From Ignavibacteria bacterium (GTDB taxonomy: Bacteria; Bacteroidota; Ignavibacteria; Ignavibacteriales; SURF-24): a stretch of DNA of 64,000 nucleotides. Both the position numbers and the translations under genes were made by a program. Positions 1 through 21,984 of the stretch are shown in pieces; positions within the stretch are counted from its first letter, which is position 1; every line of letters begins with the position of its first letter. Under the pieces are notes generated by a model. That model was not told the origin of the DNA. It saw only the letters and a program-made list of their open reading frames with translations, and ran no database searches. The stretch is taken from the NCBI GenBank assembly GCA_025612245.1, contig JAAXKQ010000004.1:1-64000 (forward strand). Reading direction: 5' to 3'.

Positions 1-129
1 ATTTCCCTGATTGTGTGTTTTGTGTAATGAATATTTAAGATAATTCTCGGTTGTTTTGATGGGATGGTTTTTATGTGTGTGGGGTCATGGTTCAATGATA
101 TATTTATCCAATAGTAAGTAAGATAAAAG

Positions 130-385
130 TCGCTCCTTCCGGAGCTCTGGAATTCAGGGGGGATACCGGTGTTTGCTACAGACAAAACGCTCCTTCCGGA
201 GCTTGGAAGATGCGTGATTATATTGGTTCAGATATCGTTGAGATAGTTGTGGGATTATTCGCCCGGGGGCAGTCTATCCGGAGCTTGGGGGAGGCGTTGT
301 TCTGTTGGTCTGGATTTTATGGGCGGGGGGATTTGGTTACCCCGGGCTAAAGACATGTGGCCCCTTAAAAGGAGCTTGGAAAATG
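130..385. repeat. Cluster of GCTCCTTCCGGAGC-type palindromic repeats
   Basis: Two copies of the palindrome CGCTCCTTCCGGAGCT lie at about 131-146 and 188-203, and related GGAGCTTGG pieces follow near 281 and 371. A 32-bp stretch (261-292) recurs exactly at 23034-23065. A second block (about 330-373, with the core CCCCGGGCTAAAGACATG) recurs with few changes near 23110-23151. The segment therefore looks like a dispersed extragenic repeat rather than a gene. The 80-codon reading frame across it (305-547) has low-complexity composition and runs into the terminator of the neighbouring operon, so I do not call it. Confidence 0.6.
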
Positions 386-486
386 CGTTATGTGAGGTGT
401 TCTGCTTTTTACGTTTTTGAATTAGCGACTACAGGTGATGAACCGGTGCCGGATTGTGTATGCACCGTAGGTGCTTTCCACGGGGC

Positions 487-520
487 GAAAAAAAACTGCC
501 TGAGAAATCTCAGGCAGCTT
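487..520 (-). terminator. Rho-independent terminator of the susCD operon
   Basis: CTGCCTGAGA and TCTCAGGCAG form a nearly perfect hairpin at 496-517. On the minus strand it is followed by a run of Ts (complement of the A run at 487-495). It sits about 30 bp past the susD-like stop codon. Confidence 0.85.
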
Positions 521-550
521 TTAATTATTAAGACATTGCTTCAGTAAATT

Positions 551-1837: not shown

Positions 1838-1863
1838 AGTTTAATTTTTCCTCTAATAATTTC

Positions 1864-4788
1864 TTATAAATTCAATGTAAGGCCGAAAATTATGCTGCGC
1901 GGGATCGGGCATGTAGCAAAATCGAATCCTCTGATGTATGCAGATTGTCCGGCGGCGTTAGTTTCAGGGTCGTAACCCGAATAATTAGTAAATGTAAACA
2001 GGTTTCTTCCTGTAAGGCTTACTTGAATATTATTCAATCCGACAGAGCGGATAGCTTCATTTCTCAATGTATAGGAAATTGAAACTTCTCTTAATTTTAC
2101 AAAGCTTGCATCGGAGACGAATTCGCCGAGAGCGCTGTTAACTCTTACGTTATAACCCCACGGGAGTTCGCCGGTATATTCTTTTGCAAAGTCGGGTGAA
2201 TTAGGATATGATGCACTCTTTAAGTTTCTTGAATTCCAGTCGAGTACCTTGAAATCCCACTGAGCATCAAACATAACGCGCATTGAGAGATTGCTCCACA
2301 AGGTAAAATCGTTTGTAAAGGACCACATAAGCTTCGGGTTCGGGTCGCCAAGATATTCCTTATAGGTTTTTCTTGTCGGGAGGCCGTTAGCGTCGAGCTT
2401 ATTATAGTCGATTTTATAGGTATAGAAAGTAGAAGGAGCCTTACCTTCCTCGAGGACAGTCTGATACCAGCTGATGACAACCTGTTTGCCGGCATAGAGT
2501 TTATCGACGATAGGGTTATTTGTAGAAACGGAAATTGTAGAAGACCAGTTAAAAGACGGCATCTGGAAGTTAACCGTTCTTAAGAGGAGTTCGATACCCT
2601 TATTGGAAAGGATTCCAACGTTCTGGAACTGGCTTGTAAAGCCTGTAGAAGCATCAACAGGGGCCTGCATGATGAGGTCCTCAACTTTCTTGTTGAAGTA
2701 AGTGAATTCCAGGCCTATTCTGCCGTTGAGCAGTTCAAAGTCGGTACCGAGTTCCCATTCTTTCATTCTTTCAGGTTTCAGGTTATCGTTGCCCAGAATC
2801 AAGCTGTTAATGAGGCCGAGTTTGCCGTTATAGGAAACCTGGGTATAGTTAGAAAGCCTACCGAAGCTTGAAGCAGGCTGACCGCCGGAGAAACCGAAAG
2901 CGCCCCTGACCTTAAAGTAGCTGATATAGTTAGCGAGGTTTTCTTTCCAGAAATCGTTTTCAGATACGATATAAGATGCGCTGTATTTCGGGAATATCTG
3001 CCATCTCTGGTCGGCGCCGAAAGTAGAAGATGCATCGGCTCTTAAAGAACCGGTCAGATAGAGCAGGTTATCGTAGTTGAGAGTTTCCTGGAAGTAGTAG
3101 CCCAGAGTTTTCCTGACGTCTTTAGATTCAGAGACGGCGTCGTAAGCAGCGCTACCGTTAAGCAGTTCTACAAAAGGAGTTAAATCCTGGGTCTGTGAAG
3201 AAACGAGATCACTTTCCATCTGGAAGTATTCTGTACCGACGGCAGAGGTGGATTTAATCTTTGAAGTCAGGCTGGTATTATAGGTAACGTCGATATTAGA
3301 GTTAATGCTCTGGCTTTGTTTTGTTGCATCCTGGGAGAAGCCGTTAGGATACATTGTTTGAGAGGAGATGCGGGGTATATAGTATTTGTCGTTCTGTGAA
3401 TACCCGTCAAATCCCAAGCGGTACTGGATTGAGAGTCCCTGCAGGGGTGTAGCGTCCAGTTTCAGTCCGCCGACGAATCTGTTGATTTCCTCGGGAGATT
3501 TCCAGTTGTTGATGATGTCTAGCGGGTTAGCTCTGTTAGCCGGGTTAAAGCCTGCCAGAGGATAAATGCCGTTTGCATCGGGGTATGAATTATAGGTATT
3601 CGGGAGGTTAGTAACCGCAGTTAGCACGCCGAATCCGTTATCATAAGCGCCGCCGTTAGCGACGATATTGTTAAGAGAGTGGATATAGTTAGTACTGACA
3701 GAAGCACTAAGCCAGTCGTTAAAGATCCTGTCTATGTTCACTCTGAAGCTTTTCTTGTCGTATCTCTGAGATTTGATGATACCTTCCTGGTTATTCCATG
3801 AACCTGAGAGGAAGTATTTAGTTGTCTGATCGCCGCCGGATAAAGACAGGCTTGTAGTAGCCCTGGGAGCGATCTGGAAGATTTCATCCTGATAGTCGTA
3901 CCTTGTAACCGGAGTTAAAGGTGCATCTTTAGAAGTTTTAGTATAAGGATAGGTGATCATATCGAGTTTTTTGACCACCTGGTCGAATCCGTAAGTAGTA
4001 TTGAGGCGGACCTTCATTTGTCCGGACTGACCGCGTTTTGTAAAGATCTGAACGACGCCGTTATTGGCGCGTGATCCATAGAGTGCAGCGGCAGCAGCGC
4101 CTTTAACCACCTCAATTCTTTCGATATCTTCGGGGTCGAAGTCGGCGATACGGTTAGTAGCGTTACCGCCCATATCTATAAGGGCGCTGGCGCTGTTATC
4201 GACAATAACGCCATCGACGATATAAAGCGGGTCGGAAGTACCTGAATAAAGTGTAGAAAGGCCGCGTAACCTGACGGAAGTACCGCCGCCGGGGTTACCT
4301 GAGTTTACCTGCACCATAGCGCCGGGGATCTTACCGGTTAAAGCCGCATCGATCTGAGCGGTACCGATATTTTCGAGTTCTTTTGATTGCAGTGTACTGA
4401 TGCTGTTGCCGAGACTTTTCTTTTCAACTGCTTCGGCGTTTCCGGTAATTACGACCTGGTCGAGCAGTAAGATGTCTTCTTCGAGAGTAAAGTCAAGAGT
4501 AACTTTTCCTGTTTGGGAAGGTAAAGTTTCTCTTTTGGTTTTATAGCCGACGAATTTTACTTCGACTGAGTTAGCGTTAGCGGGAAGTTTTTTTACTTCA
4601 AAACTGTACTCGCCCTGTGCATTTGTACTGGAACCATAAGTAGTTCCGGGAACTATTACAACTGCACCAATAATAGGGTTCGTTTGTTTGTCGGTAACCT
4701 TACCCTGGATAGTTACCTGGGCACTTAGGGAAGCGGTCCAGGTAAGAACCAATGCCAGCATGGACAAAAATATAATTTTTCTCCTCAT
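1864..4788 (-). CDS. SusC/RagA-family TonB-linked outer-membrane transporter
   Basis: This is an outer-membrane beta-barrel importer of 974 residues, a normal SusC length. A signal peptide (about 1-23, ending SLSAQ) is followed by a CarboxypepD_reg-like beta-sandwich (about 25-110, ITGxV-type start QVTIQGKVTDKQTNPIIGA). The TonB plug (about 115-235) contains the SusC hallmarks VRLRGLSTL, PLYIVDGV and IERIEVVKGAAAAALYGSRA. The rest is barrel and ends in the aromatic-rich strand FGLTLNL. It is first in an operon with the SusD-like gene. A GGAG motif lies eight bases before the ATG. The pair would import an oligomeric nutrient using TonB/ExbBD energy. Confidence 0.93.
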   Translation of the reverse strand: MRRKIIFLSMLALVLTWTASLSAQVTIQGKVTDKQTNPIIGAVVIVPGTTYGSSTNAQGEYSFEVKKLPANANSVEVKFVGYKTKRETLPSQTGKVTLDFTLEEDILLLDQVVITGNAEAVEKKSLGNSISTLQSKELENIGTAQIDAALTGKIPGAMVQVNSGNPGGGTSVRLRGLSTLYSGTSDPLYIVDGVIVDNSASALIDMGGNATNRIADFDPEDIERIEVVKGAAAAALYGSRANNGVVQIFTKRGQSGQMKVRLNTTYGFDQVVKKLDMITYPYTKTSKDAPLTPVTRYDYQDEIFQIAPRATTSLSLSGGDQTTKYFLSGSWNNQEGIIKSQRYDKKSFRVNIDRIFNDWLSASVSTNYIHSLNNIVANGGAYDNGFGVLTAVTNLPNTYNSYPDANGIYPLAGFNPANRANPLDIINNWKSPEEINRFVGGLKLDATPLQGLSIQYRLGFDGYSQNDKYYIPRISSQTMYPNGFSQDATKQSQSINSNIDVTYNTSLTSKIKSTSAVGTEYFQMESDLVSSQTQDLTPFVELLNGSAAYDAVSESKDVRKTLGYYFQETLNYDNLLYLTGSLRADASSTFGADQRWQIFPKYSASYIVSENDFWKENLANYISYFKVRGAFGFSGGQPASSFGRLSNYTQVSYNGKLGLINSLILGNDNLKPERMKEWELGTDFELLNGRIGLEFTYFNKKVEDLIMQAPVDASTGFTSQFQNVGILSNKGIELLLRTVNFQMPSFNWSSTISVSTNNPIVDKLYAGKQVVISWYQTVLEEGKAPSTFYTYKIDYNKLDANGLPTRKTYKEYLGDPNPKLMWSFTNDFTLWSNLSMRVMFDAQWDFKVLDWNSRNLKSASYPNSPDFAKEYTGELPWGYNVRVNSALGEFVSDASFVKLREVSISYTLRNEAIRSVGLNNIQVSLTGRNLFTFTNYSGYDPETNAAGQSAYIRGFDFATCPIPRSIIFGLTLNL

Positions 4789-5349
4789 TCACGACTCCAT
4801 TTGTTTTATTTTGGTTTTTATTGTATTGCATTTGTCCTGACGGAAACTTTTGGTATCCGCCGCAGACATAATTAGAACACGAAGTTATCATTAATTCTTT
4901 AGAGCAATAAATTCATGAAGTTCAGCTGCAGAATTGGAAAGAACTAATAAGTAAGCCTGAATACAGGGGCATAAATCAGTGAAGGAAACGCATTTGTTCT
5001 TCCGATTATGCCATCATTACTAAATATTTCGTATATAAAACTATTTTACGAGCGTAAACAAAATAGAGATATTCTTTTTGTAATTCAAAGCTTTTGAGAT
5101 AAAATTGTGCGATATTTACAGAAAATTTTTGCTTTTATGGAGGCTAAGATATTACTTCCTGATTAATATTTCCCACGCGGGAATATTGTTATTTAGCCTG
5201 TAAGCCGGCAAACTAATGCCGAGGGAGTAAAAAAATGAGATTTTGGCAGAAAAAGTGAAAAATTTTTCCGAAAACGCTGCGTGTCACCATATATATATAA
5301 AGAGACAAAACTTTTAGTGGAAATATTCTTAATTATTGAGGCAAATTGA
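4789..5349. promoter_or_regulatory. Divergent intergenic region with a palindrome at 5165-5187
   Basis: This 561-bp AT-rich spacer separates the divergent susC-like gene and the secreted-protein gene, so it should hold both promoters. The clearest element is an inverted repeat, AATATTTCCC-ACGC-GGGAATATT (5165-5187), with 9-bp arms and one bulged base. That could be an operator. It is not followed by a T run. I could not assign -35/-10 boxes with confidence, and I see no gene here. Confidence 0.35.
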
Positions 5350-7549: not shown

Positions 7550-8110
7550 TTACTTAATTTCGGACTTAACTAATTTTGTATATTCGTATGCAAATCCATT
7601 TAAGAATGAATATGTCATTCCAACTCCTTTCTGATAGGTAACACCATATCCGTTATCTATTAACTGTGGAATAGATTCAAAAGCCATGATATCACCGTTC
7701 TTTTTAGAAACCTTAAGGTCCTTCTCCCAATAGGCCTTATCATTCAGATTTAAGGAAAAGTCGGCAATAATATTTTCTCCTTTTCCCATATGGGCAAACA
7801 ATATTTTGTCGCTCATTCTTAAAAATGCCGTATCTTTAATGCCGGAGGCTAGTTGAGTTGAGACAACCTCATAATAAGTTTTATTATCGATAGATTTCTG
7901 TCCGGTTACCTCCCTGACGACATTAATGGAAGATGTATCGGAAATTCCGTTAGTGTGATAGTACCATTTGTTACCCACTGCCAGTGGAAAATACTCTGAA
8001 GAAGCAGGAGCCGGTTCATTTGGGGATTTGCAGCCGGTTAAAAAAGAAAGAAAAAGAAGGATACACAGAGCAGAATATTTTATCAGATTAAAGATACCCG
8101 TTTTCCCCAT
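7550..8110 (-). CDS. Small lipoprotein, paralogue A
   Basis: This is a 186-residue predicted lipoprotein with a signal peptide and lipobox (FLSFLTGCKSPNEP, Cys about 27). The mature part begins EYFPLAVGNKWYY, a motif seen in many FCB-group lipoproteins of unknown function, and is otherwise beta-rich. A paralogue lies 3.6 kb away at 11114-11677. The two are identical over the first 40 or so residues and the upstream DNA, and conserved again around AYWE and the C-terminal LVKSEIK, but divergent between. The chemoreceptor gene lies between them on the other strand. The function is unknown. The pattern suggests recent duplication or gene conversion of the 5' half with diversification of the exposed part. 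Confidence 0.75.
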   Translation of the reverse strand: MGKTGIFNLIKYSALCILLFLSFLTGCKSPNEPAPASSEYFPLAVGNKWYYHTNGISDTSSINVVREVTGQKSIDNKTYYEVVSTQLASGIKDTAFLRMSDKILFAHMGKGENIIADFSLNLNDKAYWEKDLKVSKKNGDIMAFESIPQLIDNGYGVTYQKGVGMTYSFLNGFAYEYTKLVKSEIK

Positions 8111-11113: not shown

Positions 11114-11677
11114 TTACTTAATTTCGGACTTAACTAATTCTTTGGATTTATATCCAAAATTATTTGAGTATGAATATATCATTCCAATTCCCTTCTTATA
11201 AGTAACAGCATATCCCCAATCTTTCATCGATGGAGTAGACCCAAAAGTTATAATATCGTCATTTTTTTCAGTAACCCAAAGGTTCTCCTCCCAATAGGCC
11301 TTATCATTCAGGTTTAAGGAAAAGTCGGCAACAATTTTTTCTCCCTTTTCATTGCGTAAAAGCAATTTATTGCCTTCAAATCTGTAATAAAATGTACTAA
11401 TGGTATAGGAAACAAAGTCAGTTGAGATAACTTCATAATACATTTTATTATCGATAGTTTTCGTTCCTGTTATCTCATCGATAAGAGTAAACGAATCTGA
11501 AGTACGAGAAACGCCGTCGGTACTATAATACCATTTGTTGCCCACGGCCAGTGGAAAATACTCTGAAGAAGCAGGAGCCGGTTCATTTGGGGATTTGCAG
11601 CCGGTTAAAAAAGAAAGAAAAAGAAGGATACACAGAGCAGAATATTTTATCAGATTAAAGATACCCGTTTTCCCCAT
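11114..11677 (-). CDS. Small lipoprotein, paralogue B
   Basis: This is a 187-residue lipoprotein with the same signal peptide, lipobox (LTGCKSPNEP) and GNKWYY motif as paralogue A at 7550-8110. The central region differs (for example YYSTDGVSRTSDSFTLIDEI against YYHTNGISDTSSINVVREV). A conserved block around VADFSLNLNDKAYWE and an identical last seven residues then return. Its 5' end and upstream region lie within the 384-bp perfect repeat, so the two genes probably share the same promoter control. Function unknown. Confidence 0.75.
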   Translation of the reverse strand: MGKTGIFNLIKYSALCILLFLSFLTGCKSPNEPAPASSEYFPLAVGNKWYYSTDGVSRTSDSFTLIDEITGTKTIDNKMYYEVISTDFVSYTISTFYYRFEGNKLLLRNEKGEKIVADFSLNLNDKAYWEENLWVTEKNDDIITFGSTPSMKDWGYAVTYKKGIGMIYSYSNNFGYKSKELVKSEIK

Positions 11678-11930: not shown

Positions 11931-12165
11931 TGCCTTTAGATCTTTTTTGTTATAAGATAAATTATCATTCCGTGTGCTACAGATCGGTTATTTCTGCTTG
12001 ATGAAGGGGATAAAAGACGGGGAAAAAAGCTGAAAAAGGCGGTAAGCCTGTCCGGCAATTTGATGGGAAAGTGGGGGAGTATTAACTGGTTTATACCTCA
12101 GGGGTCAAGTGTTAGAGGCAGGTATGTAGGGGAATAAGTCCCGAAATTTACATTAAGAGTCTTTA

Positions 12166-12213
12166 TGGAGCTGGCGGAGGGATTTGGAGCACACTGAGCA
12201 GCTGATTACAAAT
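12166..12213 (-). repeat. Degenerate tRNA-Thr 3'-end fragment (candidate distal attachment site)
   Basis: Aligned to the tRNA gene at 21909-21954, this stretch keeps TGGAGCTGG, then GGAGGGA, TTTG, and an exact CAGCTGATTACAAAT (12199-12213), with substitutions and a 2-base insertion between. It has no anticodon-arm partner or acceptor 5' half, so it is not a gene. Its orientation is that expected for the far attachment site of an element inserted into the tRNA 3' end. Confidence 0.7.
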
Positions 12214-12262
12214 AAACCGGCTTTGTTCTTTAATACGTCAAAATCGCAATATTTACCCCATT

Positions 12263-12282
12263 TGTACAGTCGAATGTACAGT
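12263..12282. promoter_or_regulatory. TGTACAGT pair near the left end of the island
   Basis: TGTACAGT at 12263-12270 and 12275-12282 are separated by four bases. The same 8-4-8 arrangement occurs at 21821-21840 near the right end. These are candidate arm-type recombinase or excisionase binding sites. Confidence 0.55.
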
Positions 12283-12413
12283 TAGCCTTCTTTAATTGAA
12301 TAAACTTCCATTAGTTATTTGAACTATACCAGACGTTATTTCTTATACAATGTAGCAGTTAAATACAAAAATAATGTCGAGGAACTACTTAGCCAAACAT
12401 CTTTATCTGAACA

Positions 12414-12983
12414 TTATAATACCTTTCTAAAGATAATGCATGATAGCACTCTGGTTACCTCATGAATGTTTTTAATGTGTGATACGCCAGTTGCCTTTTG
12501 GACTATTTGCGTTATCGCCCATTCCAGACATTTTCTACAAACTACAGGATCATTTGAATGAAAAGCAGTATGACAGTCATAGCATAATGGGATGATATTA
12601 TAATAGCTCCTAGGCCCACCTTCAGCATCTGCAATAATATGGGCTTTTTGTGTAACCCTTTTAGGATTTCCGCATACGGCACATATTCTCTTTTTCTTTT
12701 TTCGTTTAGGCTCTTCTAATGCTAACCCTGTATCTCTACGAACTGGGAGACCAAGACGTTCGACCCAGCATAATCTTTTTCCTGACGGATCATGCCGAAA
12801 AATTAAGCCTCTTGAAGTATGTATACTTTTTGCAAATTTCTTTTGTCCCCAACCCTCTTCTAAATAATGTTTCCGATAATATTCTTCAAATGTACAAGAA
12901 ATCATTTTTTCAACCCAAAGTATTGCAGGGGTCTTTACGCCTATAGGGATCGCCTTAAATTGACCCTGGGAATTTCTTTCCAT
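12414..12983 (-). CDS. HNH-type zinc-finger protein with N-terminal HTH-like segment
   Basis: This is a 189-residue protein of unknown role. The C-terminal part has the HNH endonuclease layout: CAVC (about 101), AHIIADAEGG, NIIPLCYDCHTAFH, then CRKC. That gives the paired CxxC/CxxCH zinc ligands plus the His and Asn of the catalytic beta-beta-alpha-metal fold. The N-terminal half has EEGWGQKKFAKSIHTSRGLI, which resembles a helix-turn-helix. A basic linker KRKKKKR joins the halves. I chose the ATG at 12983 because GGAGAAAAA precedes it; an upstream ATG (13025) would add 14 residues. It could be a homing- or restriction-type endonuclease of the island, but specificity cannot be read. Confidence 0.6.
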   Translation of the reverse strand: MERNSQGQFKAIPIGVKTPAILWVEKMISCTFEEYYRKHYLEEGWGQKKFAKSIHTSRGLIFRHDPSGKRLCWVERLGLPVRRDTGLALEEPKRKKKKRICAVCGNPKRVTQKAHIIADAEGGPRSYYNIIPLCYDCHTAFHSNDPVVCRKCLEWAITQIVQKATGVSHIKNIHEVTRVLSCIIFRKVL

Positions 12984-13059
12984 TTTTTCTCCATTAATTA
13001 TTCTTGAGTAATATATATTGAGCATTTTAGGAATAAATTTATATTATATTTGGCAAAAC

Positions 13060-13102
13060 AATAATGAAAGAGAAAAAAGCGTGGCCGCAATGACCACGCC
13101 TT
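13060..13102 (-). terminator. Hairpin plus T run, minus strand
   Basis: GCGTGG (13079-13084) pairs with CCACGC (13094-13099). On the minus strand the hairpin is followed by TTTTTT and a pyrimidine-rich tract. No intact minus-strand gene lies upstream of it now, which fits loss or decay of a gene in 13.1-13.8 kb. Confidence 0.5.
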
Positions 13103-13789
13103 AAGGTACTACCACTGAACCCACTGACACTTGAGCGAGTGTTGGTATTATTTAGCGATATTGAGCGAGAGAATCTGTTAGTTTATGTTATTTGAATTCT
13201 TAACTAGCTGCACTTGGTGAGATGTGGAATGGAATTGAACGTTTCATTCGCTTCATTTGTCAAGGAAGCAGAAGTACTGGGATTCAGTCGTTATAGCTAT
13301 ACAGTTCGTAAGAGTTACTGGAACGATTTAATACTTGTATCACAAAATTCATAATACATCAAATCATGCCTGCCCAGGAATCGATATCGTCCTCTTTGCG
13401 GGGTAGCGAGAAGAACTGGATCAGATTCGTTCCATTACAGTGAGGCGATCTACTCTCTCATCGAGCACAGAGCCACAACGACTAAGCCAAAAGGCAACGA
13501 TATACCGGACATTTATCAAAGCGGAGTCACCTCCGTATTTCTGACGCATTCCTTCCGAGTCTGAGGACTAGCTTCGATCCCGAGGAGTTTGTCCGTAAGA
13601 GCTTTGCCCTGCGGAGTTGAATGGAATTTCCAGACCCCCGGTACCTCGAAACGTTTTAAAAAGAGATTCCATATGGCGTTCGTAGAGATACCAGGCAATG
13701 TGTCCTTGACCATCTATATTGAGTGCCATGTATTAATTGAATTATTAGAAATAATATGATATATTAGGGATCAAAAATCGAGGAACGTT
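13103..13789. other. Gene-free stretch, probably decayed DNA
   Basis: No intact gene is supported over about 690 bp. Minus-strand frames with short protein-like runs occur (for example 13516-13713, 65 codons, and a different frame starting with an ATG near 13732 and broken by a TAG). They fit a frameshifted relic, but I recognise no family. The 9-mer TTGAGCGAG occurs at 13131 and 13161. Confidence 0.35.
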
Positions 13790-13790
13790 T

Positions 13791-14573
13791 ATGAGACTGT
13801 ACATCGCAATATTGATCTGCTTGGTATCAAATGTGGGCATCAGAGCCCAATTAACTATAAAAGCGAATGTCTCAGGTCAAATGGTTATGAACGTTATTGA
13901 TGTAACGACCGGCAAGACTTCATATATTAGTATGGCGGACGCCAATGGATTGAATATTATTGATGCACAGAAGTTCACTACTGTATTGACGATCCAAGAT
14001 CCTGATGTTAGCTACGCGAATTATTTGGTCAAGGACACCGACAAAAATGGAAGCGATGAATTCGTAGTTATATACTATGACAAAACCAATTCTCTAAATT
14101 ATTTTAAACTGATTGACATCAAAAGCAAAGAAGTATTACAGGAGTGGAAGGGGGAGCAGTCTTTTTATCCCCATATGACTGTTTCAAGCGACAACCATAT
14201 ACTACTTGAGATTGAAGATTCCCAAAGTAAACAAACCCTGTTCTACGATCTCGGTACTTGTAATACTTCGTCCTCAGTTGTTAGTTCGGACGCGCCAAGT
14301 AGTTATGGCCTAAAACAGAATTTTCCTAATCCGTTTAACCCATCGACAACAATAGGGTATACATTATCTGAAGCAGGACCGGTCAAACTTAATATTTACG
14401 ATATATCAGGCAAACTCGTGAGAACAATCAATGAATCTGCTTCAGCCGGATCACATCACTATATTTGGAACGGCCTAAATGATAATGGCGATAAACTATC
14501 AAGCGGCATGTACATCTATCAGCTGGAAACGAAATCCTTCAAGGAATCGAAGAAAATGCTGATGCTTAAATAG
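13791..14573 (+). CDS. Island-borne secreted protein with T9SS sorting domain
   Basis: This is a 260-residue exported protein. A signal peptide (about 1-19, ending GIRAQ) is followed by an about 150-residue beta-rich region. That region has repeated Asp-rich turns (KDTDKNGSDEFVV resembles an FG-GAP/EF-hand-like loop), but I do not recognise it as a whole. The C-terminal 85 residues are a FlgD-like/type IX sorting domain: QNFPNPFNPSTTIGYTL, IYDISGKLVRTI and SSGMYIYQLETKSFKESKKM. GAGGAACG precedes the ATG. It is flanked on both sides by gene-free DNA. A host-type sorting domain on an island gene suggests the island circulates within lineages having T9SS. Confidence 0.72.
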   Translation: MRLYIAILICLVSNVGIRAQLTIKANVSGQMVMNVIDVTTGKTSYISMADANGLNIIDAQKFTTVLTIQDPDVSYANYLVKDTDKNGSDEFVVIYYDKTNSLNYFKLIDIKSKEVLQEWKGEQSFYPHMTVSSDNHILLEIEDSQSKQTLFYDLGTCNTSSSVVSSDAPSSYGLKQNFPNPFNPSTTIGYTLSEAGPVKLNIYDISGKLVRTINESASAGSHHYIWNGLNDNGDKLSSGMYIYQLETKSFKESKKMLMLK

Positions 14574-14723
14574 TTATTTATTTACATAAATATTGTCGCC
14601 TGTGTCAAGGTCAGTTCCATATATGTCAAACGGCAAAAGACTCTTGGATTCTTTATATGAGGCTTCGATTGATATTTTAGGTGAATATTCCTGTGGTTTT
14701 CCAGTCGGTTGCCGATAAAACAT
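14574..14723 (-). pseudogene. Fragment: 3' end of a lost gene
   Basis: A 49-codon minus-strand frame, convergent with and directly abutting the sorting-domain gene, has protein-like composition (EASYKESKSLLPFDIYGTDL, ending GDNIYVNK). A stop lies two codons upstream of its only ATG. I do not recognise it. It reads like the C-terminal tail of a longer protein whose 5' part was lost, but it could be a tiny gene or chance. Confidence 0.3.
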
Positions 14724-15847
14724 AGACTAGCTTTTGCGGCTGCACTTACTAAGCCGAACAATAAAATATTTCAACTATTTTGGTACCAAATCGAAGTTTT
14801 GTTCCTGCACTTTTGCATAGTACTACTAGGACCAATAAATTAAACGCCTTAATGCTAGCAAAACCGTTCAAAATCCACGAAAAACGTGGATGTGGATTGA
14901 TTTTCGAAGCAGAAAATGGCGGCTTAGGCAACGTGGCGCTTGAGTGGACGTGAGATCCTTTGCTCGAAATCGGTTATGGTAATCGTCTTGACATGAATAT
15001 AAATAAACGTTCCAACAGGCAAGAAGGTCTTTCTGCAGCAAGGACCGTGTTGTTCTGTATTGAGGTCCTTACCTCGACTTCGCCAGGTATCAGGCGCCGT
15101 CTGTGATGGAATCTTTTAGAACGACTATTTAACCAAGTCCGATATTAAATGCTAACCATAACGGTTTTTCAAATCTGGCGGTGTACGTCCCTGAGGCGTG
15201 TCATTGACTAGTGGCTGATTCGACTGAAGTGGGATCAAGCACCCTTTTATTTCAGGCGATTACGCGGCTTTAGTTGAGCAAGGAAGGGGAACGCCAGATT
15301 TTGCGGTTACGAGTTTGTTTTGCAATACGCATTTAGCTGATCGATGCCGCTTATGCAGTATTTTCGCCATAACAGAGGAAGCTTTTTTTTTATTCAGATG
15401 ATCGTCAAGGAGGGAAGCTTCTTAAAAGCTTCCTCTCTGGAACGTTATTGGCGATTCCGCATTTGGCAGTTACGTCAGTTAGCGAAGTTAACCGATTTTG
15501 CAGTCCTAACGTTCATAATTGTTTTTTGGCGCCGCGACTACGAAAATGATTAACTTGGTTAACTATCCACGATCACGGAAGATAAACTATGACGGTCCTG
15601 AACCTGACGCGCATGTGTTAAGTGACCTCTTCCTTGAGAGGGAACATTCCAGAAGCTAATATGTGATACAGTGCGTGTTTAATATTCAACCGCCGTCGGT
15701 TATGCGAAGTAGATTTTGAAACGTAATAAATCTCTACAGGGTGTACGACCAACTTATTCGTTCGGATTCCGTAGCGGACCTCTGTACCGCAAATAAAAAA
15801 ACCTCACGTTAATGATGGTTAGTCTAGCTCGTATATCGTCTATCCAG
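14724..15847. other. 1.1-kb gene-free stretch upstream of the helicase 3' end
   Basis: No frame has convincing coding character. The 69-codon plus frame at 15344-15553 is low-complexity, with no ribosome site. Structures seen are a 13-bp perfect inverted repeat, AGAGGAAGCTTTT/AAAAGCTTCCTCT (15374-15386/15424-15436), and a hairpin ATCCACG-AAAA-CGTGGAT near 14873-14891. It may be eroded island DNA. An origin for the adjacent helicase is conceivable, but I see no iteron array. Confidence 0.35.
15374..15436. repeat. 13-bp perfect inverted repeat
   Basis: AGAGGAAGCTTTT (15374-15386) and AAAAGCTTCCTCT (15424-15436) flank a 37-nt spacer that itself contains GGGAAGCTTC, so alternative pairings are possible. 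It lies about 410 bp beyond the 3' end of the helicase gene. Confidence 0.55.
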
Positions 15848-17185
15848 TTAAAGGTCGCTAATTCGTACTATTCCTTGAATGTATCGGCTATTACCGGCGC
15901 CGGATTTTATCTCCAGGCCGATAGAACTTTCAATGGAGTTGTAGAAATCATTTCGGCTGAGAGGTTTCACGCGAGTCTGCTGGCAGTACTCTATATAACT
16001 TTCAAAAGCCTCAGAAGCCTTAACCTGTCCGCAGTCAGCTAAGCAAAATGTATCATTTATGAACTCATCAACGTTATTCATTTGATTGAATGCCGCGTGA
16101 GTCTCGTTTTGCACACATTTCGGAGCATCAAATCTGATGCTGTATCTGAAATCCTTCTGCTCAAAAATATGCGAGAGCTGTTCCAATAACAGGTTCAGGA
16201 AACCTGATTTTTCAGTTTCTGTAATCAACTTGCCCTTCAATCCAGTGTCCTCCTTGCCCCCTGAAAATGTCTGATCGAAATGGATTAAGACATATCTCCG
16301 TTTTATCGCCTCATTTATTTCGCCTAATTGAGGAATATGGTTCGTTAAAATTAGGATACGGGCAAAATTCATGAAAGTAACGGGTTCTTTTCCTTTAATA
16401 TCGGCCGTAATGGTAGATTCGCCACTGAGCTTCTTAAGATTGTCCTGACTTAGTTTTCCTGCCCTTTGCTCGCTGGAAATATTAACGAATTTGTTCCTCA
16501 GGCAGCCCAGGAAGAATCTGTTCTCGGCTATGTCGTATGAACTTACACTGGCACAGTTTGCATCACCCAGTATCGCCTGAATGGTAGTTAATGCTGTATC
16601 TTTCCCGTTGCCGCCGGAGCCGTAGAACATCCAGATCTTTTGGAATTCATACGTCGGAATCAGCAGATACATCATTATTGTTAAAAAGTACTTATATTTC
16701 TCCTCGTTTGGCAATATCTGCTTCAATGTCCGTATATTGAATTTCGCTACCGCTTCGGGATCGTATTCGACATTAAATTGCCTTGTTATATAATAATCAG
16801 GTGAATGCTCTATCTTCTGTATTATCCCAGAGCGAATGTCTAATATGCAGTTATTTAAGTTAAGTAAGTACTTATAACTGTCGCCATCAAAATCTACTCT
16901 GTTATCCATGCAGGACAACTTGAACAGATTGTAGACATTATCCATTAATCCTGACGTGGGATTATGAACCATATTCTCTTTACAGAATTGAAGAATTCGT
17001 CCCTTTATATAGAGGGAGTCAATCTGCTTATAATAGCCTTTTGCCTCCATATTATCCTGGTACTCGTAAAACGTATCTGAGTTATTTGATAACTTTATAT
17101 GCGGGTAAGCCTTTATAAATTCATCAGCAATATCCATGGCGTTCATTTTTATTTTTGCGTAGTTATTCATAAGTATCGTAGTCAT
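15848..17185 (-). CDS. P4/D5-type SF3 helicase (phage/plasmid primase C-terminal family)
   Basis: This 445-residue protein matches the superfamily 3 helicase half of phage P4-alpha/D5-like replication proteins. The Walker A loop is MFYGSGGNGKDT (about 186-197), followed by a Walker B-like region around NISSEQRAGKL. The motif C/arginine-finger region is LILTNHIPQLGEINEAIKRR (about 280-300), then VLIHFDQTF. There is no primase domain at the N terminus, so it is the helicase alone. It starts 9 bp after the integrase stop with GGAGAGGG as ribosome site, so it is the third gene of an RHH-integrase-helicase operon. It implies that the element replicates after excision, like satellite phages or replicative integrative elements. 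Confidence 0.82.
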   Translation of the reverse strand: MTTILMNNYAKIKMNAMDIADEFIKAYPHIKLSNNSDTFYEYQDNMEAKGYYKQIDSLYIKGRILQFCKENMVHNPTSGLMDNVYNLFKLSCMDNRVDFDGDSYKYLLNLNNCILDIRSGIIQKIEHSPDYYITRQFNVEYDPEAVAKFNIRTLKQILPNEEKYKYFLTIMMYLLIPTYEFQKIWMFYGSGGNGKDTALTTIQAILGDANCASVSSYDIAENRFFLGCLRNKFVNISSEQRAGKLSQDNLKKLSGESTITADIKGKEPVTFMNFARILILTNHIPQLGEINEAIKRRYVLIHFDQTFSGGKEDTGLKGKLITETEKSGFLNLLLEQLSHIFEQKDFRYSIRFDAPKCVQNETHAAFNQMNNVDEFINDTFCLADCGQVKASEAFESYIEYCQQTRVKPLSRNDFYNSIESSIGLEIKSGAGNSRYIQGIVRISDL

Positions 17186-17194
17186 TTCCCTCTC

Positions 17195-18166
17195 CTAAGC
17201 AGCTTTATTAAAAACGTTAATTGCATTCTTCAACGATTCAGTATTTATATGGCTGTATCTTTCCGTTACCGATACAGACGAGTGCCCCAGCAGTTCCTTG
17301 ACTGTGAATATTGAGACGCCTCTTTGCACCAGGTTCGAGGCAAATGAATGCCTCAGGCCATGGAAGTGTACCTTTTCATCCAGACCGATCTCACGGCAGA
17401 CCGCCTTAAACTTCTTGGATACATATTCGAGGGTAAACCGGAAGCCGTTCGATTTACAGAATACATATCCATCATCCTTGCAGCCTCTGAGCTTTAAGTT
17501 TATTAGGACGCCGAACAATTCATCGCAGATCGGGACCGCCCTTTGCTTACGGCTTTTGGTCGTCAGTTCTGAATCGCCAATGAGTATGATCCCGCTTTCC
17601 AGATCAATACTGTGCCACCGGATTTGTACAATTTCACCGACACGGCATCCGGTATAAAAGGCGAAGGTAAAGAGGTCGCCCAATAGATCAGACTTTGCAG
17701 CGGTTACAATCCGAATTAAGTCATCTTCGTCCAGGTAGACGGAACCGAATTCCTGCTGCTTCGGCAATCGTATTTTGTCGAAAGGGTTCTCAGATATGTA
17801 TTCCCAATCTTTTGCTTTATTGAACGCAGCCTTCAAGTTACGGTGATACACCTTGAACCCTTTAGGTGCAGATTTCCTTAAGAACGCCTCGAATCTCTCA
17901 GCGTCTTTTGTTTTAATCTCGCTAAGGCTCTTATCGTCGCCGAAATATTCAGTTAAATGTCTTAGGCTCAGTTCTATTGAACGCCTATACTTTTCAGCGT
18001 GGTTGTCCTGAGAGAATGTCATATATTCACGTCTGAAATCATTAAGAGTCCTGGATTCATCCTTACGGTTATCTTTAATAAAAGTTAACGCCTTCAGTAT
18101 ATTGTCTTTTTCCCCTGAAGATATACCTGAGAGTAATTGGATTAAAAGCTCTGCCTTTTGAGTCAT
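17195..18166 (-). CDS. Tyrosine recombinase/integrase (intact)
   Basis: This is a 323-residue site-specific recombinase. The N-terminal SAM-like core-binding domain (about 60-140) is followed by the catalytic domain. The active-site set is visible: Arg I in GCRVGEIVQIRW, Lys in the beta-hairpin near LTTKSRKQRA, HxxR in HFHGLRHSFAS, the second His in LLGHSSVSV, and the nucleophile Tyr in TERYSHI. The first codon overlaps the stop of the RHH gene (TAATG), so the two are translationally coupled. It is related to the interrupted tRNA-proximal integrase at 20662-21666 (shared AAFNKA, LVQRGVS and LLGH blocks) but clearly a different gene. It would move the RHH-int-helicase element. Confidence 0.9.
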   Translation of the reverse strand: MTQKAELLIQLLSGISSGEKDNILKALTFIKDNRKDESRTLNDFRREYMTFSQDNHAEKYRRSIELSLRHLTEYFGDDKSLSEIKTKDAERFEAFLRKSAPKGFKVYHRNLKAAFNKAKDWEYISENPFDKIRLPKQQEFGSVYLDEDDLIRIVTAAKSDLLGDLFTFAFYTGCRVGEIVQIRWHSIDLESGIILIGDSELTTKSRKQRAVPICDELFGVLINLKLRGCKDDGYVFCKSNGFRFTLEYVSKKFKAVCREIGLDEKVHFHGLRHSFASNLVQRGVSIFTVKELLGHSSVSVTERYSHINTESLKNAINVFNKAA

Positions 18167-18345
18167 TACTCGTTCTCCGACTTCGTATCGATTGTTAACT
18201 TATAGAGGTTGTTCTCTACATATTCGATTAGAATGTACCGGATCATAGAGCTAAAGCTTAAACCTTTAAGCTTTGCCAATTTGTCAAGGTTAATGACATT
18301 TTTAATGTCCAGCCTCGACTGAATTGATTTTGTTTCGTTAGCCAT
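18166..18345 (-). CDS. Small ribbon-helix-helix-like regulator
   Basis: This is a 59-residue protein. After a short polar start it reads SIQSRLDIKNVINLDKLA and continues KGLSFSSMIRYILIEYVEN. That fits a ribbon-helix-helix fold: a beta strand with alternating residues, then two helices with a turn at KGLSFSS. Such proteins act as repressors or recombination directionality factors in mobile elements. A GGAG motif lies eight bases before the ATG. The stop overlaps the integrase start (TAATG). Three phased direct repeats lie 87-147 bp upstream and are candidate operators. It may control integrase and helicase expression or act as excisionase; this is inference. Confidence 0.68.
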   Translation of the reverse strand: MANETKSIQSRLDIKNVINLDKLAKLKGLSFSSMIRYILIEYVENNLYKLTIDTKSENE

Positions 18346-18431
18346 TTTGCTACTCCATTATGAGGGGTAATTGAATTTTAGGCCGCAGAGGTGCGGTCGA
18401 TTAACGGTAGTAAAAGTATGGTGGCTTTTTA

Positions 18432-18492
18432 CGCAGATCAAATTAATCCAGTCCAATAATTGCGCAGATCATCCTTCGAAATGCGCAAATCA
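18432..18492. promoter_or_regulatory. Three helically phased direct repeats upstream of the RHH-integrase operon
   Basis: CGCAGATCA at 18432-18440 and 18463-18471 and CGCAAATCA at 18484-18492 are spaced 31 and 21 bp apart, close to three and two turns of DNA. All have the same orientation. They probably bind the RHH protein or the integrase arm-binding domain. Confidence 0.5.
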
Positions 18493-18638
18493 CTTTAAAA
18501 TGGGAATTGAATGGATTTTTATTGGCTGGGGAGAGTAAATGTGTTGAAAAATTCAGCGATATATTATGAAAGTAGCCTATTCCTTTTAACGAGAAATCAT
18601 TGTAAAATTGTATCATTATTTAATAAGTTTTATGGCAA

Positions 18639-18905
18639 ATGTCTAAAGACAATAATGGTGTAAACCCTAGCTTCTAACAAAAGTTCGAGCAGGCAGCAAA
18701 TAAAATGCACCATAACATGGATGTCGCTGTCGAAGACCGTGATGAGTATACCGCCGAGAATATATTTGGGGTACCTCGGAAATAGCGCTGGTTTTATGTG
18801 CAGGTAAGTCATATTGTGCCTGAAATGGTAAAGCCATAGGCCATAGATCTCGCTCTTGAAAAAGATAGAGTGAAATTGTTACTTCGCGGTTTTTGCAAAA
18901 TTACA
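18639..18905 (+). pseudogene. Relic of hsdM (type I restriction-modification methyltransferase subunit)
   Basis: One plus-strand frame, broken by several stops, matches the start of HsdM proteins. It opens MSKDNNGVNPSF, then a stop, then QKFEQAANKMHHNMD, corresponding to the family's FExKxWxAADKLRxNMDAAEY start. About 40 residues are missing, after which it resumes with VEDRDEYTAENIFGVPRK-stop-RWFYVQ, matching the family's DRDEYxAENIFWVPxEARWSYLQ. Farther on, ALEKDRVKLL resembles the following conserved IEKDNPxLK segment. I know this motif set from the family and have not aligned it by program. No hsdS or hsdR remnant is recognised. It shows that a restriction system once lived here. Confidence 0.65.
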
Positions 18906-18939
18906 TAATATAATATAACGCAAAAAGTATGAGGCTAAA

Positions 18940-19620
18940 ATGTCTTCTATACTCAAAAAAATACTTGGTTTTCCCAAATTGCCAGAAGAGAAGTTGCCCG
19001 ATTGTGGGAAAAACGAAGATTCTAGGGAAATTGAAGGCTACATTGGCTATTTCAGACTGACAGATTGGTGGCGCTCCAATTTCACTGAAGAAGAGCAAAA
19101 TTACATAGTTTCGAGATTTGTTCCTTTGGGAAGCTGTTCTCTAGTCCAAGGCAAAGTCGGCAGTACATCACAAAGTGCGATTGATTTCCTTCAATCTATG
19201 AAGTCCTGGTTTAGGAAAAAAGAGGATTATTCTATTTATATCCGAATTCATATGCAAATCGATGAATTAGCCAAGGCAAATCCTTCTGTTAAGCCCGGAT
19301 ATGTAAGAGGACGGCACTTTTGTACCTATACAGATGATGTTAATGCATTAATTAAGGATAATCTTTTATCTGAAGCAGAATCATTACTTCTGGAATTAGT
19401 AGCAGCTACTGAAGCCGAAAGTAAATGCAAGGGATGGAGGGCTGCGCCATGGTATTACGATAAACTATCTATTATTTACAAGAAACGTAAGGAATACACT
19501 AAAGCGCTTCAAATCCTTGAGCGGTACTCGGAACAATGTCATGCTCCTGGGACAATGCCTGCAACTCTTGCCAAACGTCTCGAACGAATAAGAGGACTTC
19601 TTCAAAAATCAAGTTCATAA
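18940..19620 (+). CDS. Unknown protein with C-terminal TPR-like helices
   Basis: This is a 226-residue soluble protein I cannot assign to a named family. The middle has a Trp- and Cys-containing segment (GYFRLTDWWRSNFTEEEQN). The C-terminal half is helical with TPR-like pairs (LIKDNLLSEAESLLLELVAA, then WYYDKLSIIYKKRKEYTKAL). The start has GAGG seven bases upstream. The gene follows the hsdM relic directly and is 29 bp from the CoiA-like gene on the same strand, so the two are probably one operon. It has no signal peptide or membrane segment. It could be a partner, sensor or immunity factor of the nuclease; that is inference from position only. Confidence 0.65.
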   Translation: MSSILKKILGFPKLPEEKLPDCGKNEDSREIEGYIGYFRLTDWWRSNFTEEEQNYIVSRFVPLGSCSLVQGKVGSTSQSAIDFLQSMKSWFRKKEDYSIYIRIHMQIDELAKANPSVKPGYVRGRHFCTYTDDVNALIKDNLLSEAESLLLELVAATEAESKCKGWRAAPWYYDKLSIIYKKRKEYTKALQILERYSEQCHAPGTMPATLAKRLERIRGLLQKSSS

Positions 19621-19649
19621 TATTCCATTATTATGAGGAACGAACTGAA

Positions 19650-20498
19650 ATGGCAATCAAAGCATATGACAGTAAAGGGGAAATAGTATTGGCCTTTGAG
19701 GTAGCAGAACGTGACATTGAATATACCTGCTGCAATTGTGGTAATAAAATGTCTTTCGTGAATGCCAATATTAAAGTGAAACACTTCAGACATTTAGTAG
19801 AATGCAATTGTGATCCAGAACCTGAAACAGCAGCTCATATATTCTACAAGAGAACTGTATTTCAAATATTGAAGAAAATGAACCTTGGCGAGGTATTACT
19901 TGAACATTCGCTCGATGGTATTGCGCGACCAGATATATTTGTTAAGCGTGAGAATGCACCGGATATAGCTATTGAAGTTCAGGCAACTAATATGGAACTG
20001 GACTCTTTCTACCAAAAGATTGCCTACTATTTATTACAAGGCTTTATTACAGTATACTTATTTATTACAGAAGAGGATAAAGGGGATTTTCTCTACAGTC
20101 CCAGAGAGCACATATATTCTCTTAAAGAATTCGAAAAGCGCATACTTTATCATAAAATTTTTGGGCCTACGGTTAAAGCTGCATACATACGTGGCGAAAC
20201 AATCCGTGTGCCCATATTTAATCCAAAATGGGCAAAAGGGGGAGAGGAATATTGTAGAACTAGATTCATTATTGATCATCAACAAAGTTACGCGAAAAAT
20301 ATTAGGGAGTATTTTGAAGATTTGCGAAACTTTAAAATCAATCGTTCCAACTGCAAACATCTATTTACAAAACATAAGCTGCATACGGATGATAAAATCG
20401 TTAGATACCAGACAGTATGTGGAATATGCGGCAAGCATATGGGGTGGCTACCAAATAAAAAGGCTCTGGAACTAGGACTTCCATTTCCAAACAAATAA
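19650..20498 (+). CDS. CoiA-like nuclease family protein
   Basis: This 282-residue protein has the layout of the CoiA-like family: a CxxC zinc motif (CCNCGNKMSF, about 26-35), KHFRHL, then ETAAHIFYKRTVF. A PD-(D/E)xK-type core follows: GIARPDIFV (about 90) and APDIAIEVQAT (about 103-113), giving the D...ExQ pair expected of the nuclease fold. A C-terminal second CxxC (CGICGKHMGW) may bind another zinc. I chose the ATG at 19650 because GAGGAAC precedes it and the zinc domain starts right after. CoiA itself aids competence, but relatives on islands are often linked to defence. Here it is paired with the TPR-like gene at 18940 beside restriction-modification debris. Confidence 0.68.
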   Translation: MAIKAYDSKGEIVLAFEVAERDIEYTCCNCGNKMSFVNANIKVKHFRHLVECNCDPEPETAAHIFYKRTVFQILKKMNLGEVLLEHSLDGIARPDIFVKRENAPDIAIEVQATNMELDSFYQKIAYYLLQGFITVYLFITEEDKGDFLYSPREHIYSLKEFEKRILYHKIFGPTVKAAYIRGETIRVPIFNPKWAKGGEEYCRTRFIIDHQQSYAKNIREYFEDLRNFKINRSNCKHLFTKHKLHTDDKIVRYQTVCGICGKHMGWLPNKKALELGLPFPNK

Positions 20499-20518
20499 TC
20501 TTGAGCATTCTTATCAAG

Positions 20519-20543
20519 ACTTATAAATATGCTATTTATAAGT
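20519..20543 (+). terminator. Hairpin after the CoiA-like gene
   Basis: ACTTATAAAT and ATTTATAAGT form a perfect 10-bp, AT-only stem with a 5-nt loop, 20 bp after the stop codon. No T run follows directly, so termination strength is doubtful. Confidence 0.4.
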
Positions 20544-20661
20544 TAAGTAATCTTATTAGTAGAAAATATACTTCAAAATCAATAAGAGGTACCTCTTTCA
20601 ACAATATTAAACCGAGAGACAAATGCATCTGCCATATTCCTTGCAACTGCAGTTGTGTAAC

Positions 20662-21666
20662 TCAATCGAGTAAGCCTATTGCGTCATGTAAATTCTTATT
20701 CTGCAGGTGAGCATATATCTGTGTTGTTGTCTGATCCTCGTGGCCAAGCAAATCTTTGACAACGTATAAAGAAACTCCACGCTGAACAAGCGAGCTCGCA
20801 AAGTCATGGCGCAGGTCGTGAAAATGAATACGGTCGTCTAATCCCGCGCCCCGGACAGCCTTCTTAAACTGGTGGCTAATATAATCGTTGTGATATTTGT
20901 AACCGCTTGGGTTTGTGAAGACGTATTTGCTACTGCTCCTGCTATGGAGCTTCACAAGCAGTTCCCGTAAGTTGTTGTTAATCGGTATGACTCTTTCACG
21001 CCTGCTCTTTGTCATAAACGAATCGGTGATCTGGACTCTTATAACGTTATCCTTGAAATTGACGGCGTCCCACTGCAGATTCGTAATTTCGTTCTGACGC
21101 ATGCCGGTATGGAAGCCGAAAAAGAACAGATACCTTAACGAAGGGTTCTTCGTGTTCGCCATAATCTTATCGAGGTCGGCCTTGGTAATAAATACGGGCA
21201 ACGTCTTGGGTATCCTGGGCAGCTTTATCTTGCGTATAGAATTTTCTGTCAGATAGCCCTATTCAACGGCTTTATTAAACGCGGCTTTCAACGTTCTGTG
21301 GTATAGATGAGCGGCGTAATTAGCCTGCTGGTACACCGACATAAAGAACTTCTCGAAGTCGCGTACCTTAAGGGAGGCAAGGGGGATGTCGCCCAGGCTC
21401 TCAACCAGCTTCTTAAACGACAGTTTTACGCTTCTCAGATACTGAGGCGATCTCGTCTTCTCAATGTATCCTTGATACTCATAGCGGAATTTATTCAGCG
21501 TCACGTATTCGGGTTTGGGCGCCGCCGCCATCATTCGCTTAAGATCGGATATGAACTTCAGGGCGTCCGCTTTATTCCTCGACTTCGTGGACATTCTGCG
21601 GCTGCAGCAGCTTTCAACGTCAAAGTATTCAACGTAATAGATATCTTTACGCTTAAACAAAAACAT
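20662..21666 (-). pseudogene. tRNA-proximal tyrosine integrase interrupted by a single in-frame amber codon
   Basis: Read in one frame from the ATG at 21666 (preceded by GGAGG), the gene encodes an integrase of about 334 codons with a single TAG at 21259-21261. The N-terminal part (136 codons) holds the core-binding domain and ends AAFNKAVE. The frame resumes GYLTENSIRKIKLPRI and keeps all catalytic residues: Arg in GMRQNEI, HDLRH, LLGHEDQ and Tyr in QIYAHL. The intact paralogue at 17195 has Trp at the aligned position (AKDWEYISENP), so TGG to TAG is the likely single change. It may be a fresh pseudogene, or read through by suppression. Its place next to tRNA-Thr marks it as the integrase that made the island. 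Confidence 0.8.
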
Positions 21667-21719
21667 ATAACCTCCGTTTTGATGATGGTTGGATCGGAAG
21701 TGTTCAGCTAAAGCGTTAC

Positions 21720-21727
21720 TGTACAGT
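21720..21727. promoter_or_regulatory. Single TGTACAGT motif
   Basis: A third copy of TGTACAGT near the right end of the island, about 55 bp upstream of the interrupted integrase start. Possible outer recombinase- or repressor-binding site. Confidence 0.35.
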
Positions 21728-21820
21728 GATTTTACTGCGCCTGCGTTTTTCAAGGAGCCGGTAAATGCTGCGTTATTGAAGCGAAATCGAAGAATATTGA
21801 CGGTTCTGGTGGCGCTACGC

Positions 21821-21840
21821 TGTACAGTGAATTGTACAGT
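21821..21840. promoter_or_regulatory. TGTACAGT pair near the right end of the island
   Basis: TGTACAGT at 21821-21828 and 21833-21840 are separated by four bases, the same geometry as at 12263-12282. The pair lies about 70 bp from the tRNA 3' end, between it and the integrase gene, where arm-type integrase sites are expected. Confidence 0.55.
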
Positions 21841-21861
21841 GAAGCGTATGTTTAAAACAGA

Positions 21862-21889
21862 AAAACCGTCCTTGAAGTAAGACGGTTTT
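21862..21889 (-). terminator. Terminator downstream of tRNA-Thr
   Basis: AAAACCGTC and GACGGTTTT form a 9-bp perfect stem with a 10-nt loop, and a T run follows on the minus strand. It lies 20 bp past the 3' end of the tRNA gene and separates it from the integrase gene. Confidence 0.75.
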
Positions 21890-21908
21890 CTTTGTTTTTG
21901 CTCTATTT

Positions 21909-21984
21909 TGGAGCTGGTGGAGGGACTTGAACCCCCGACCAGCTGATTACAAATCAGCTGCTCTACCAACTGAGCTACACCAGC
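21909..21984 (-). tRNA. tRNA-Thr (anticodon TGT)
   Basis: This is a 76-nt cloverleaf including an encoded CCA. On the minus strand the acceptor arms are GCTGGTG and CACCAGC. The D arm is AGCTCAGTTGGTAGAGC. The anticodon arm is CTGAT-TTTGTAA-TCAG-type with anticodon TGT. The T arm is CGGGGGTTCAAGTCCCTC. The gene is complete, since island insertion preserved its 3' end. Its 3' half is the attachment site of the adjacent island. Confidence 0.95.

Follow-up and report, generated by a model that had tools for sequence, protein, structure and literature searches.

Two genes on the plus strand, separated by 29 bp from the stop of gene 1 to the start of gene 2, are located in the window, the whole stretch of 64,000 nucleotides that was analysed. 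Their positions and those of the surrounding features are listed in Table 1. Both frames are open throughout in the window sequence, and the pair of closely spaced genes described in the original prediction is thus intact. The ATG at position 19650 is the homology-supported start of gene 2, as judged by alignment with CoiA relatives; an upstream alternative start lies at 19536. The two genes are presumably co-transcribed. In PADLOC 2.0, neither gene matches any model at E-values up to 1.

Table 1. Features of the gene pair and of the element in which it lies.
Feature	Position	Strand	Remarks
Displaced, decayed tRNA-Thr 3' half (far end of the element)	12163..12213		80% identical over 51 columns to 21906-21954
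Two TGTACAGT repeats near the far end	12263..12282	+	starts at 12263 and 12275, 12 nt apart
HNH endonuclease gene, just inside the far end	12414..13025	-	PF01844, 2.1e-8
P4-family primase/helicase gene	15848..17185	-	D5_N, DUF5906, TIGR01613 (6.1e-45)
Second tyrosine integrase gene, frame intact	17195..18166	-	PF00589, 2.9e-33
hsdM relic	18678..18782	+	35 codons; resembles the N-terminal part of class I DNA methyltransferases
Gene 1 (P0001)	18940..19620	+	226 aa; N-domain and C-terminal TPR-type module
TPR module of gene 1	19291..19617	+	found again at other loci, as a fusion with nuclease and defence genes or next to them
Gene 2 (P0002)	19650..20498	+	282 aa; CoiA-family nuclease; PF06054, 6.3e-8
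N-terminal zinc motif of gene 2 (C27, C30, H45-F46, H48, C54)	19728..19811	+	from a six-member alignment
PD...ExQ catalytic core of gene 2 (P94, D95, E109, Q111)	19929..19982	+	residues intact
tRNA-proximal integrase gene, one in-frame stop	20662..21666	-	start at 21666 chosen by eye
Two TGTACAGT repeats near the tRNA end	21821..21840	+	starts at 21821 and 21833, 12 nt apart
tRNA-Thr gene (anticodon TGT)	21909..21984	-	attachment gene

The host element and its integration site

The pair is flanked by two integrase genes, as had been proposed. Both are real according to Pfam, and the tRNA-proximal copy is interrupted by a single in-frame stop. The assignment of the adjacent relic to hsdM, also part of the original prediction, fared less well. 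In a tblastn search against plasmid records the best 10 of 82 matches are all class I DNA methyltransferases, but at E-values of 0.5–6, and there is no match in Pfam; the assignment is therefore weakly supported.

The region from 12163 to 21954 is read as an integrated element, about 9.8 kb long, in the tRNA-Thr(UGU) gene. Its ends were placed by the 3' half of the tRNA, which recurs in degraded form, and by the paired TGTACAGT repeats. The tRNA copy includes an 18-nt core with one mismatch, for which 0.01 occurrences are expected by chance. TGTACAGT is found seven times in the window (0.82 expected). The paired copies are possible arm sites of the integrase; the remaining three copies are at 13796 and 21718/21720. 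An integrase gene adjoins the tRNA gene and part of this gene is repeated at the far end, as in integrative elements. The combination of an integrase with a P4-type primase is also seen in P4-like satellites. The island setting of the original prediction is thus right, the pair being carried as cargo by a decayed element inserted in a tRNA gene. The ends of this element, its P4-family primase gene and the attachment site in tRNA-Thr go beyond the original prediction. The element is read as old, satellite-like and probably immobile.

A SpoU methylase gene is adjacent in the window. Of four other genomes of the family, three gave a match to this gene (G316 gave none), each time adjoining tRNA-Thr(TGT). 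Inspection by eye showed primase and integrase genes beside this tRNA gene in G267, primase-type genes in G318 (about 3.4 kb on that side) and neither primase nor integrase within 6.5 kb in G317. The latter is not a proven empty site, because its far flank is, by eye, not syntenic with the window. Searches for CoiA and for the TPR module beside tRNA-Thr(TGT) in G267, G318 and G317 gave no match. With other primase- and integrase-type genes at this position (L067, L069), tRNA-Thr(TGT) next to SpoU is likely an integration hotspot.

To the left of the element, the window contains two near-copies of a lipoprotein-like gene (7550-8110 and 11114-11677). A gene resembling those of methyl-accepting chemotaxis proteins lies between them (by eye).

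The two encoded proteins

CoiA_nuc (PF06054) matches gene 2 with 33.3 bits (cut-off 20.3). The score of CoiA_N (PF25164) is 14.9 bits and thus below its cut-off of 26.3, but C27, C30, H45, F46, H48 and C54 are kept in gene 2. In an alignment of six CoiA members including gene 2, columns 27, 30, 45, 46, 48, 54, 85, 95 and 109 are invariant. Accordingly, the invariant residues of gene 2 also include E85, D95 and E109. Its identity to the five aligned relatives is 20–25%. P94-D95 and E109-x-Q111 are in place, and PD-EXQ is the CoiA active-site pattern given in PMC1189080. The zinc motifs and the intact PD-(D/E)xK-like core ascribed to gene 2 from the start are therefore confirmed. Because of its CoiA family membership and these intact residues, gene 2 is expected to cleave DNA. 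C235, C257 and C260 suggest a possible second metal site. The structure predicted for gene 2 from the sequence without an alignment is unusable (mean pLDDT of 32).

Single-protein scans of genome and viral contigs gave no close relatives for gene 2, and scans of viral contigs gave none for two other CoiA proteins. Of nine plasmid matches of gene 2, three were examined (H1, H2 and H9). For P0010, four of eight phage records were examined, one of them being L012.

Gene 1 consists of an N-domain (approximately residues 29–113) and the C-terminal module (residues 118–226). No Pfam family matches it above the cut-off; the best TPR model scores 13.4 bits (cut-off 27.5), while a relative of gene 1 in L017 passes TPR_14 with 24.3 (cut-off 23.5). 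The AlphaFold2 model, calculated from an alignment of 20 sequences, has a mean pLDDT of 79.5 and is best over residues 121–226 (block means of 81–98). The top rows of a Foldseek search with this model are TPR domains, the best with an E-value of 7.8e-3 and none below 0.001. VIA-align yields Z-scores up to 12.4 (2.5 Å, 97 residues aligned), just below the tool's caution threshold for helical repeats (about 13). These matches show the kind of fold and not the function, because helical repeats easily reach such values. With good confidence, residues 118–226 are predicted to form a TPR-type helical array. The description of gene 1 as a helical protein without a recognised family is thus borne out.

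The N-domain is common to proteins in L006, L017, L035 and L058. The consensus of the conserved TPR module is WGVAPWYYEQLAIIYRK. No close relatives of gene 1 are present in viral contigs according to a single-protein scan. In L058 (G103, 2807-4368), a gene 1-type protein is, by eye, apparently split mid-way by a transposase-like gene.

Some HEPN families occur in fusions or operons with TPR proteins (PMC3710099), and TOTE and TALON systems contain a TPR-CSD fusion (PMC12458937). TPR partners of immune effectors are therefore a known theme, and this particular TPR module may be undescribed. No account of it appears in the titles and abstract openings of the top-ranked papers searched, which is weak evidence of novelty because the literature was covered to that depth. 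Term searches of PMC10952713 and PMC12839542 gave no hit for tetratricopeptide, CoiA or HIRAN.

Distribution and neighbours of the two families

The original prediction had suggested a recurring, as yet unnamed two-gene system. Within their scope, searches in both directions led to the rejection of a conserved pair of CoiA and TPR genes. The TPR module is found at none of 22 other CoiA loci examined (L008-L010, L012, L049-L057, L059, L070-L074 and L076-L078), of which L071 and L072 have short flanks. These loci are 21 distinct cases, because L077 and L078 encode the same CoiA protein. Conversely, no CoiA gene adjoins the TPR-family gene at any of 28 other such loci, as judged by a CoiA profile that fails to detect two of the 22 CoiA loci (L053 and L055); L017 begins at its gene, with the upstream neighbour outside the locus. 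The sharers of the gene 1 N-domain (L006, L017, L035 and L058) likewise have no CoiA neighbour. L033 contains a partial CoiA-like N-terminal match about 2.5 kb from its TPR gene. It is not counted as a pair, because the whole-genome search with PF06054 finds no match there.

The genome-wide counts agree. In the phylum of the window, PF06054 is present in nine of 296 genomes and the TPR profile in two, the window's own genome included each time; it is the one genome with both. G069 has a match to gene 2, yet is absent from the phylum listing of PF06054. In the phylum of G304 (239 genomes), PF06054 is found in five genomes and the TPR profile in one, the centre genome itself. One of 20 genomes with a TPR module has a PF06054 match, in a separate locus (L059) that resembles a competence locus by eye. 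Each family occurs without the other, and the pair does not recur in what was searched; rare co-occurrence elsewhere is one of the two findings that the original prediction had named as refuting it. The pairing is best read as local: a nuclease and a TPR helper were brought together here and do not constitute a conserved two-gene system. An association with defence genes is seen for each family alone and not for the pair.

Proteins with nucleic-acid or defence domains carry the TPR module as a fusion, or are encoded next to it, in 13 of 26 loci (L007, L020, L022, L024, L025, L026, L027, L029, L031, L034, L036, L037 and L038). L013 and L016 were left out of the 26, their proteins being identical to those of L025 and L037, and L006 and L058 belong to the 28 TPR-family loci and not to the 26. 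Fusions to an RNase_T/DEDDh exonuclease are present in L013/L025, L016/L037, L020 and L036, the last with an additional BRCT domain. The module is fused to Mrr_cat in L007 and to HIRAN in L024 and L034. In two Caldilineaceae genomes (L022, 4659-9112, and L026, 4590-9124) it is fused to the N-terminal side of a TerB_N/TerB/TerB_C protein. A SngB match follows in L022. L026 is similar, with a SngB/BrxD-type ATPase downstream; BrxC_BrxD is a neighbour in two members, and L026 is counted through this neighbour. The fused protein of L022 is putatively of the SngA type. Partners encoded by the next gene are HEPN_RiboL-PSP (L027), HEPN_AbiV (L031), a D12 DNA methylase (L029) and an RNase_T-BRCT protein (L038).

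L029 (3705-5955) encodes a D12 adenine methylase, a stand-alone TPR module and then a protein of 217 aa. This protein has no Pfam or PADLOC match and resembles PD-(D/E)xK nucleases by eye; the trio is a possible restriction-modification set.

For the other 13 of the 26 loci no nuclease or defence partner was counted; they include phage, metabolic and unknown neighbours as well as weak cases. Among the weak cases, L005 has an HSDR_N-like gene beside it (E = 0.058), and in L033 the gene upstream resembles HEPN but scores below the cut-off. L021 resembles L020 by eye and is likewise not among the 13 with a partner. A neighbour-domain control comprised 37 near and 67 far ORFs from crude longest-ORF calls, with 25 of 31 and 25 of 61 families listed; one or more DNA methylases are present among the far ORFs.

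CoiA homologues also have links to defence. A set of 21 E. coli defence systems obtained by functional selection includes a CoiA domain among its components, and four of the systems of that study lie at the P2 position between replication endonuclease and portal (PMC9519451, main text). A Rahnella plasmid record (CP042358; L010, 5983-6756) contains a CoiA-like orphan in the corresponding interval of a P2-like prophage, together with one small hypothetical gene. In L056 (G143, C8:117500-126500), a CoiA-like gene starts 9 bp past the stop of SngC. The Shango run with this gene is at 13-5175 of the locus, with PADLOC matches to SngA (2.2e-30), SngB (7.7e-180) and SngC (3.6e-264); at the locus start, only the C-terminal part of SngA is included. 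The CoiA-like nuclease is a possible extra Shango component. In L070, the N-terminus of the CoiA-like protein matches DruB1 at 7.1e-6. P0008 and P0010 match no PADLOC model.

L076, L077 and L078 come from records labelled Enterococcus or Listeria phage. By eye, they resemble stretches of host chromosome that include a coiA locus of the competence type.

Interpretation and comparison with known systems

The preferred reading, held tentatively, is that the pair is accessory cargo consisting of a defence nuclease and a locally acquired TPR partner. An old satellite-like element in tRNA-Thr(UGU) would have picked up both genes. Gene 2, an orphan PD-ExQ nuclease of the CoiA family that also has a zinc motif, would most likely act against incoming DNA. 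Through its TPR module, gene 1 probably binds another protein, the simplest candidate being the co-encoded nuclease, and could hold the nuclease inactive, recruit it or relay a trigger. The result would be a nuclease effector that is controlled by, or scaffolded on, its TPR partner; direction of control and trigger are presumed. The pair is plausible as a defence module; a defence role and physical contact between the products of gene 1 and gene 2 are likewise presumed.

The strongest evidence against a joint mechanism is that each gene occurs elsewhere without the other. CoiA without the TPR module in all 22 loci, TPR-family genes without an adjacent CoiA gene in all 28 and the N-domain sharers without a CoiA neighbour all fit two independent cargo genes, with gene 2 as a solo CoiA-type nuclease and gene 1 as a solo TPR protein that has another partner or none. 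This alternative is possible but doubtful. The genes lie 29 bp apart on the same strand and both are intact while integrase and hsdM have decayed, and the TPR module has nuclease-type partners at other loci. Decay of the surroundings would also suit functionless remnants, comparable to the hsdM relic and the broken integrase. However, both frames are open and gene 2 has lost none of its catalytic or zinc residues, which makes this very improbable.

Gene 2 might instead serve the element, whose DNA it would process or protect when the element integrates, is transferred or recombines. Integrase and primase genes are present in the same element, and CoiA-like genes are found beside replication genes of mobile elements (L010, and L070 by eye). 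In competent cells the presumed substrate of CoiA is imported DNA, and PMC1189080 links the protein to the uptake and recombination of DNA. On the other hand, there is no CoiA match by the same tRNA gene in G267 (L067) and G318 (L069, about 3.4 kb on that side), and the P2 hotspot is a position for accessory genes. Service to the element is thus improbable.

CoiA-family genes do serve competence elsewhere, in loci of the type mecA-coiA-pepF. The original prediction had named a host competence gene in the same place in relatives as the other finding that would speak against it. For gene 2 this function is favoured by the family name only and is hardly credible; it was rejected on context. The neighbours of gene 2 are integrases, primase and relic. 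A mecA- or pepF-like neighbour is absent, unlike in the competence-like CoiA loci L059 and L076-L078 (by eye). A search with P0002 found nothing in four genomes of the family (G316, G317, G318 and G267); G267 has a distant PF06054 match elsewhere in the genome (E = 7.9e-5). Because the family is sporadic (nine of 296 phylum genomes) and this copy lies on a mobile element, a function in competence is unlikely.

Beyond the preferred reading of a local defence pair, the TPR module may be a portable accessory part of many prokaryotic immune nucleases that passes on a common trigger or control, with its CoiA version in the window. The module would then be either fused to its partner (DEDDh, Mrr, HIRAN, the TerB protein by SngB) or encoded by the next gene (HEPN, AbiV, D12 methylase, CoiA). 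This generalisation is rather unlikely. The module is the larger point: a single conserved part that goes together with a number of unrelated nucleases and effectors of the RNase type would allow a common control mechanism to be tested across systems. If gene 2 protects against phage, an orphan CoiA-family nuclease would be added to a domain seen in selected E. coli defence systems, and accessory CoiA genes would be set apart from competence CoiA. The failed co-occurrence test cautions against naming two-gene systems on the evidence of one island.

Shango (SngA-SngB-SngC) touches both families, with one CoiA-like gene directly after SngC (L056) and the TPR module fused to a TerB_N/TerB_C protein followed by SngB (L022). 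Shango itself was rejected for the four window proteins scanned, none of which matched SngA, SngB or SngC in PADLOC. The CoiA-domain system of PMC9519451 has, like gene 2, a CoiA domain, there in a gene tested for defence. This likeness is drawn from the text of the paper alone; unlike for the window pair, the main text mentions no TPR partner and contains neither TPR nor tetratricopeptide as a term. With the CoiA family (PF06054 / COG4469), gene 2 shares the zinc motif, the PD...ExQ core and the PF06054 score above the cut-off. It differs from typical members by its locus, which is not of the competence type, by CoiA_N below the cut-off and by C-terminal C235, C257 and C260. Unlike P4-like satellites with defence cargo, the element has two integrases and is decayed; integrase by a tRNA gene, P4-family primase, small size and accessory genes are shared. 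The DEDDh-TPR fusions (L013/L025, L016/L037, L020 and L036) differ from the window pair in that their nuclease belongs to another superfamily, is fused and comes without the gene 1 N-domain, but they contain the same C-terminal module, which is 36–46% identical to that of gene 1.
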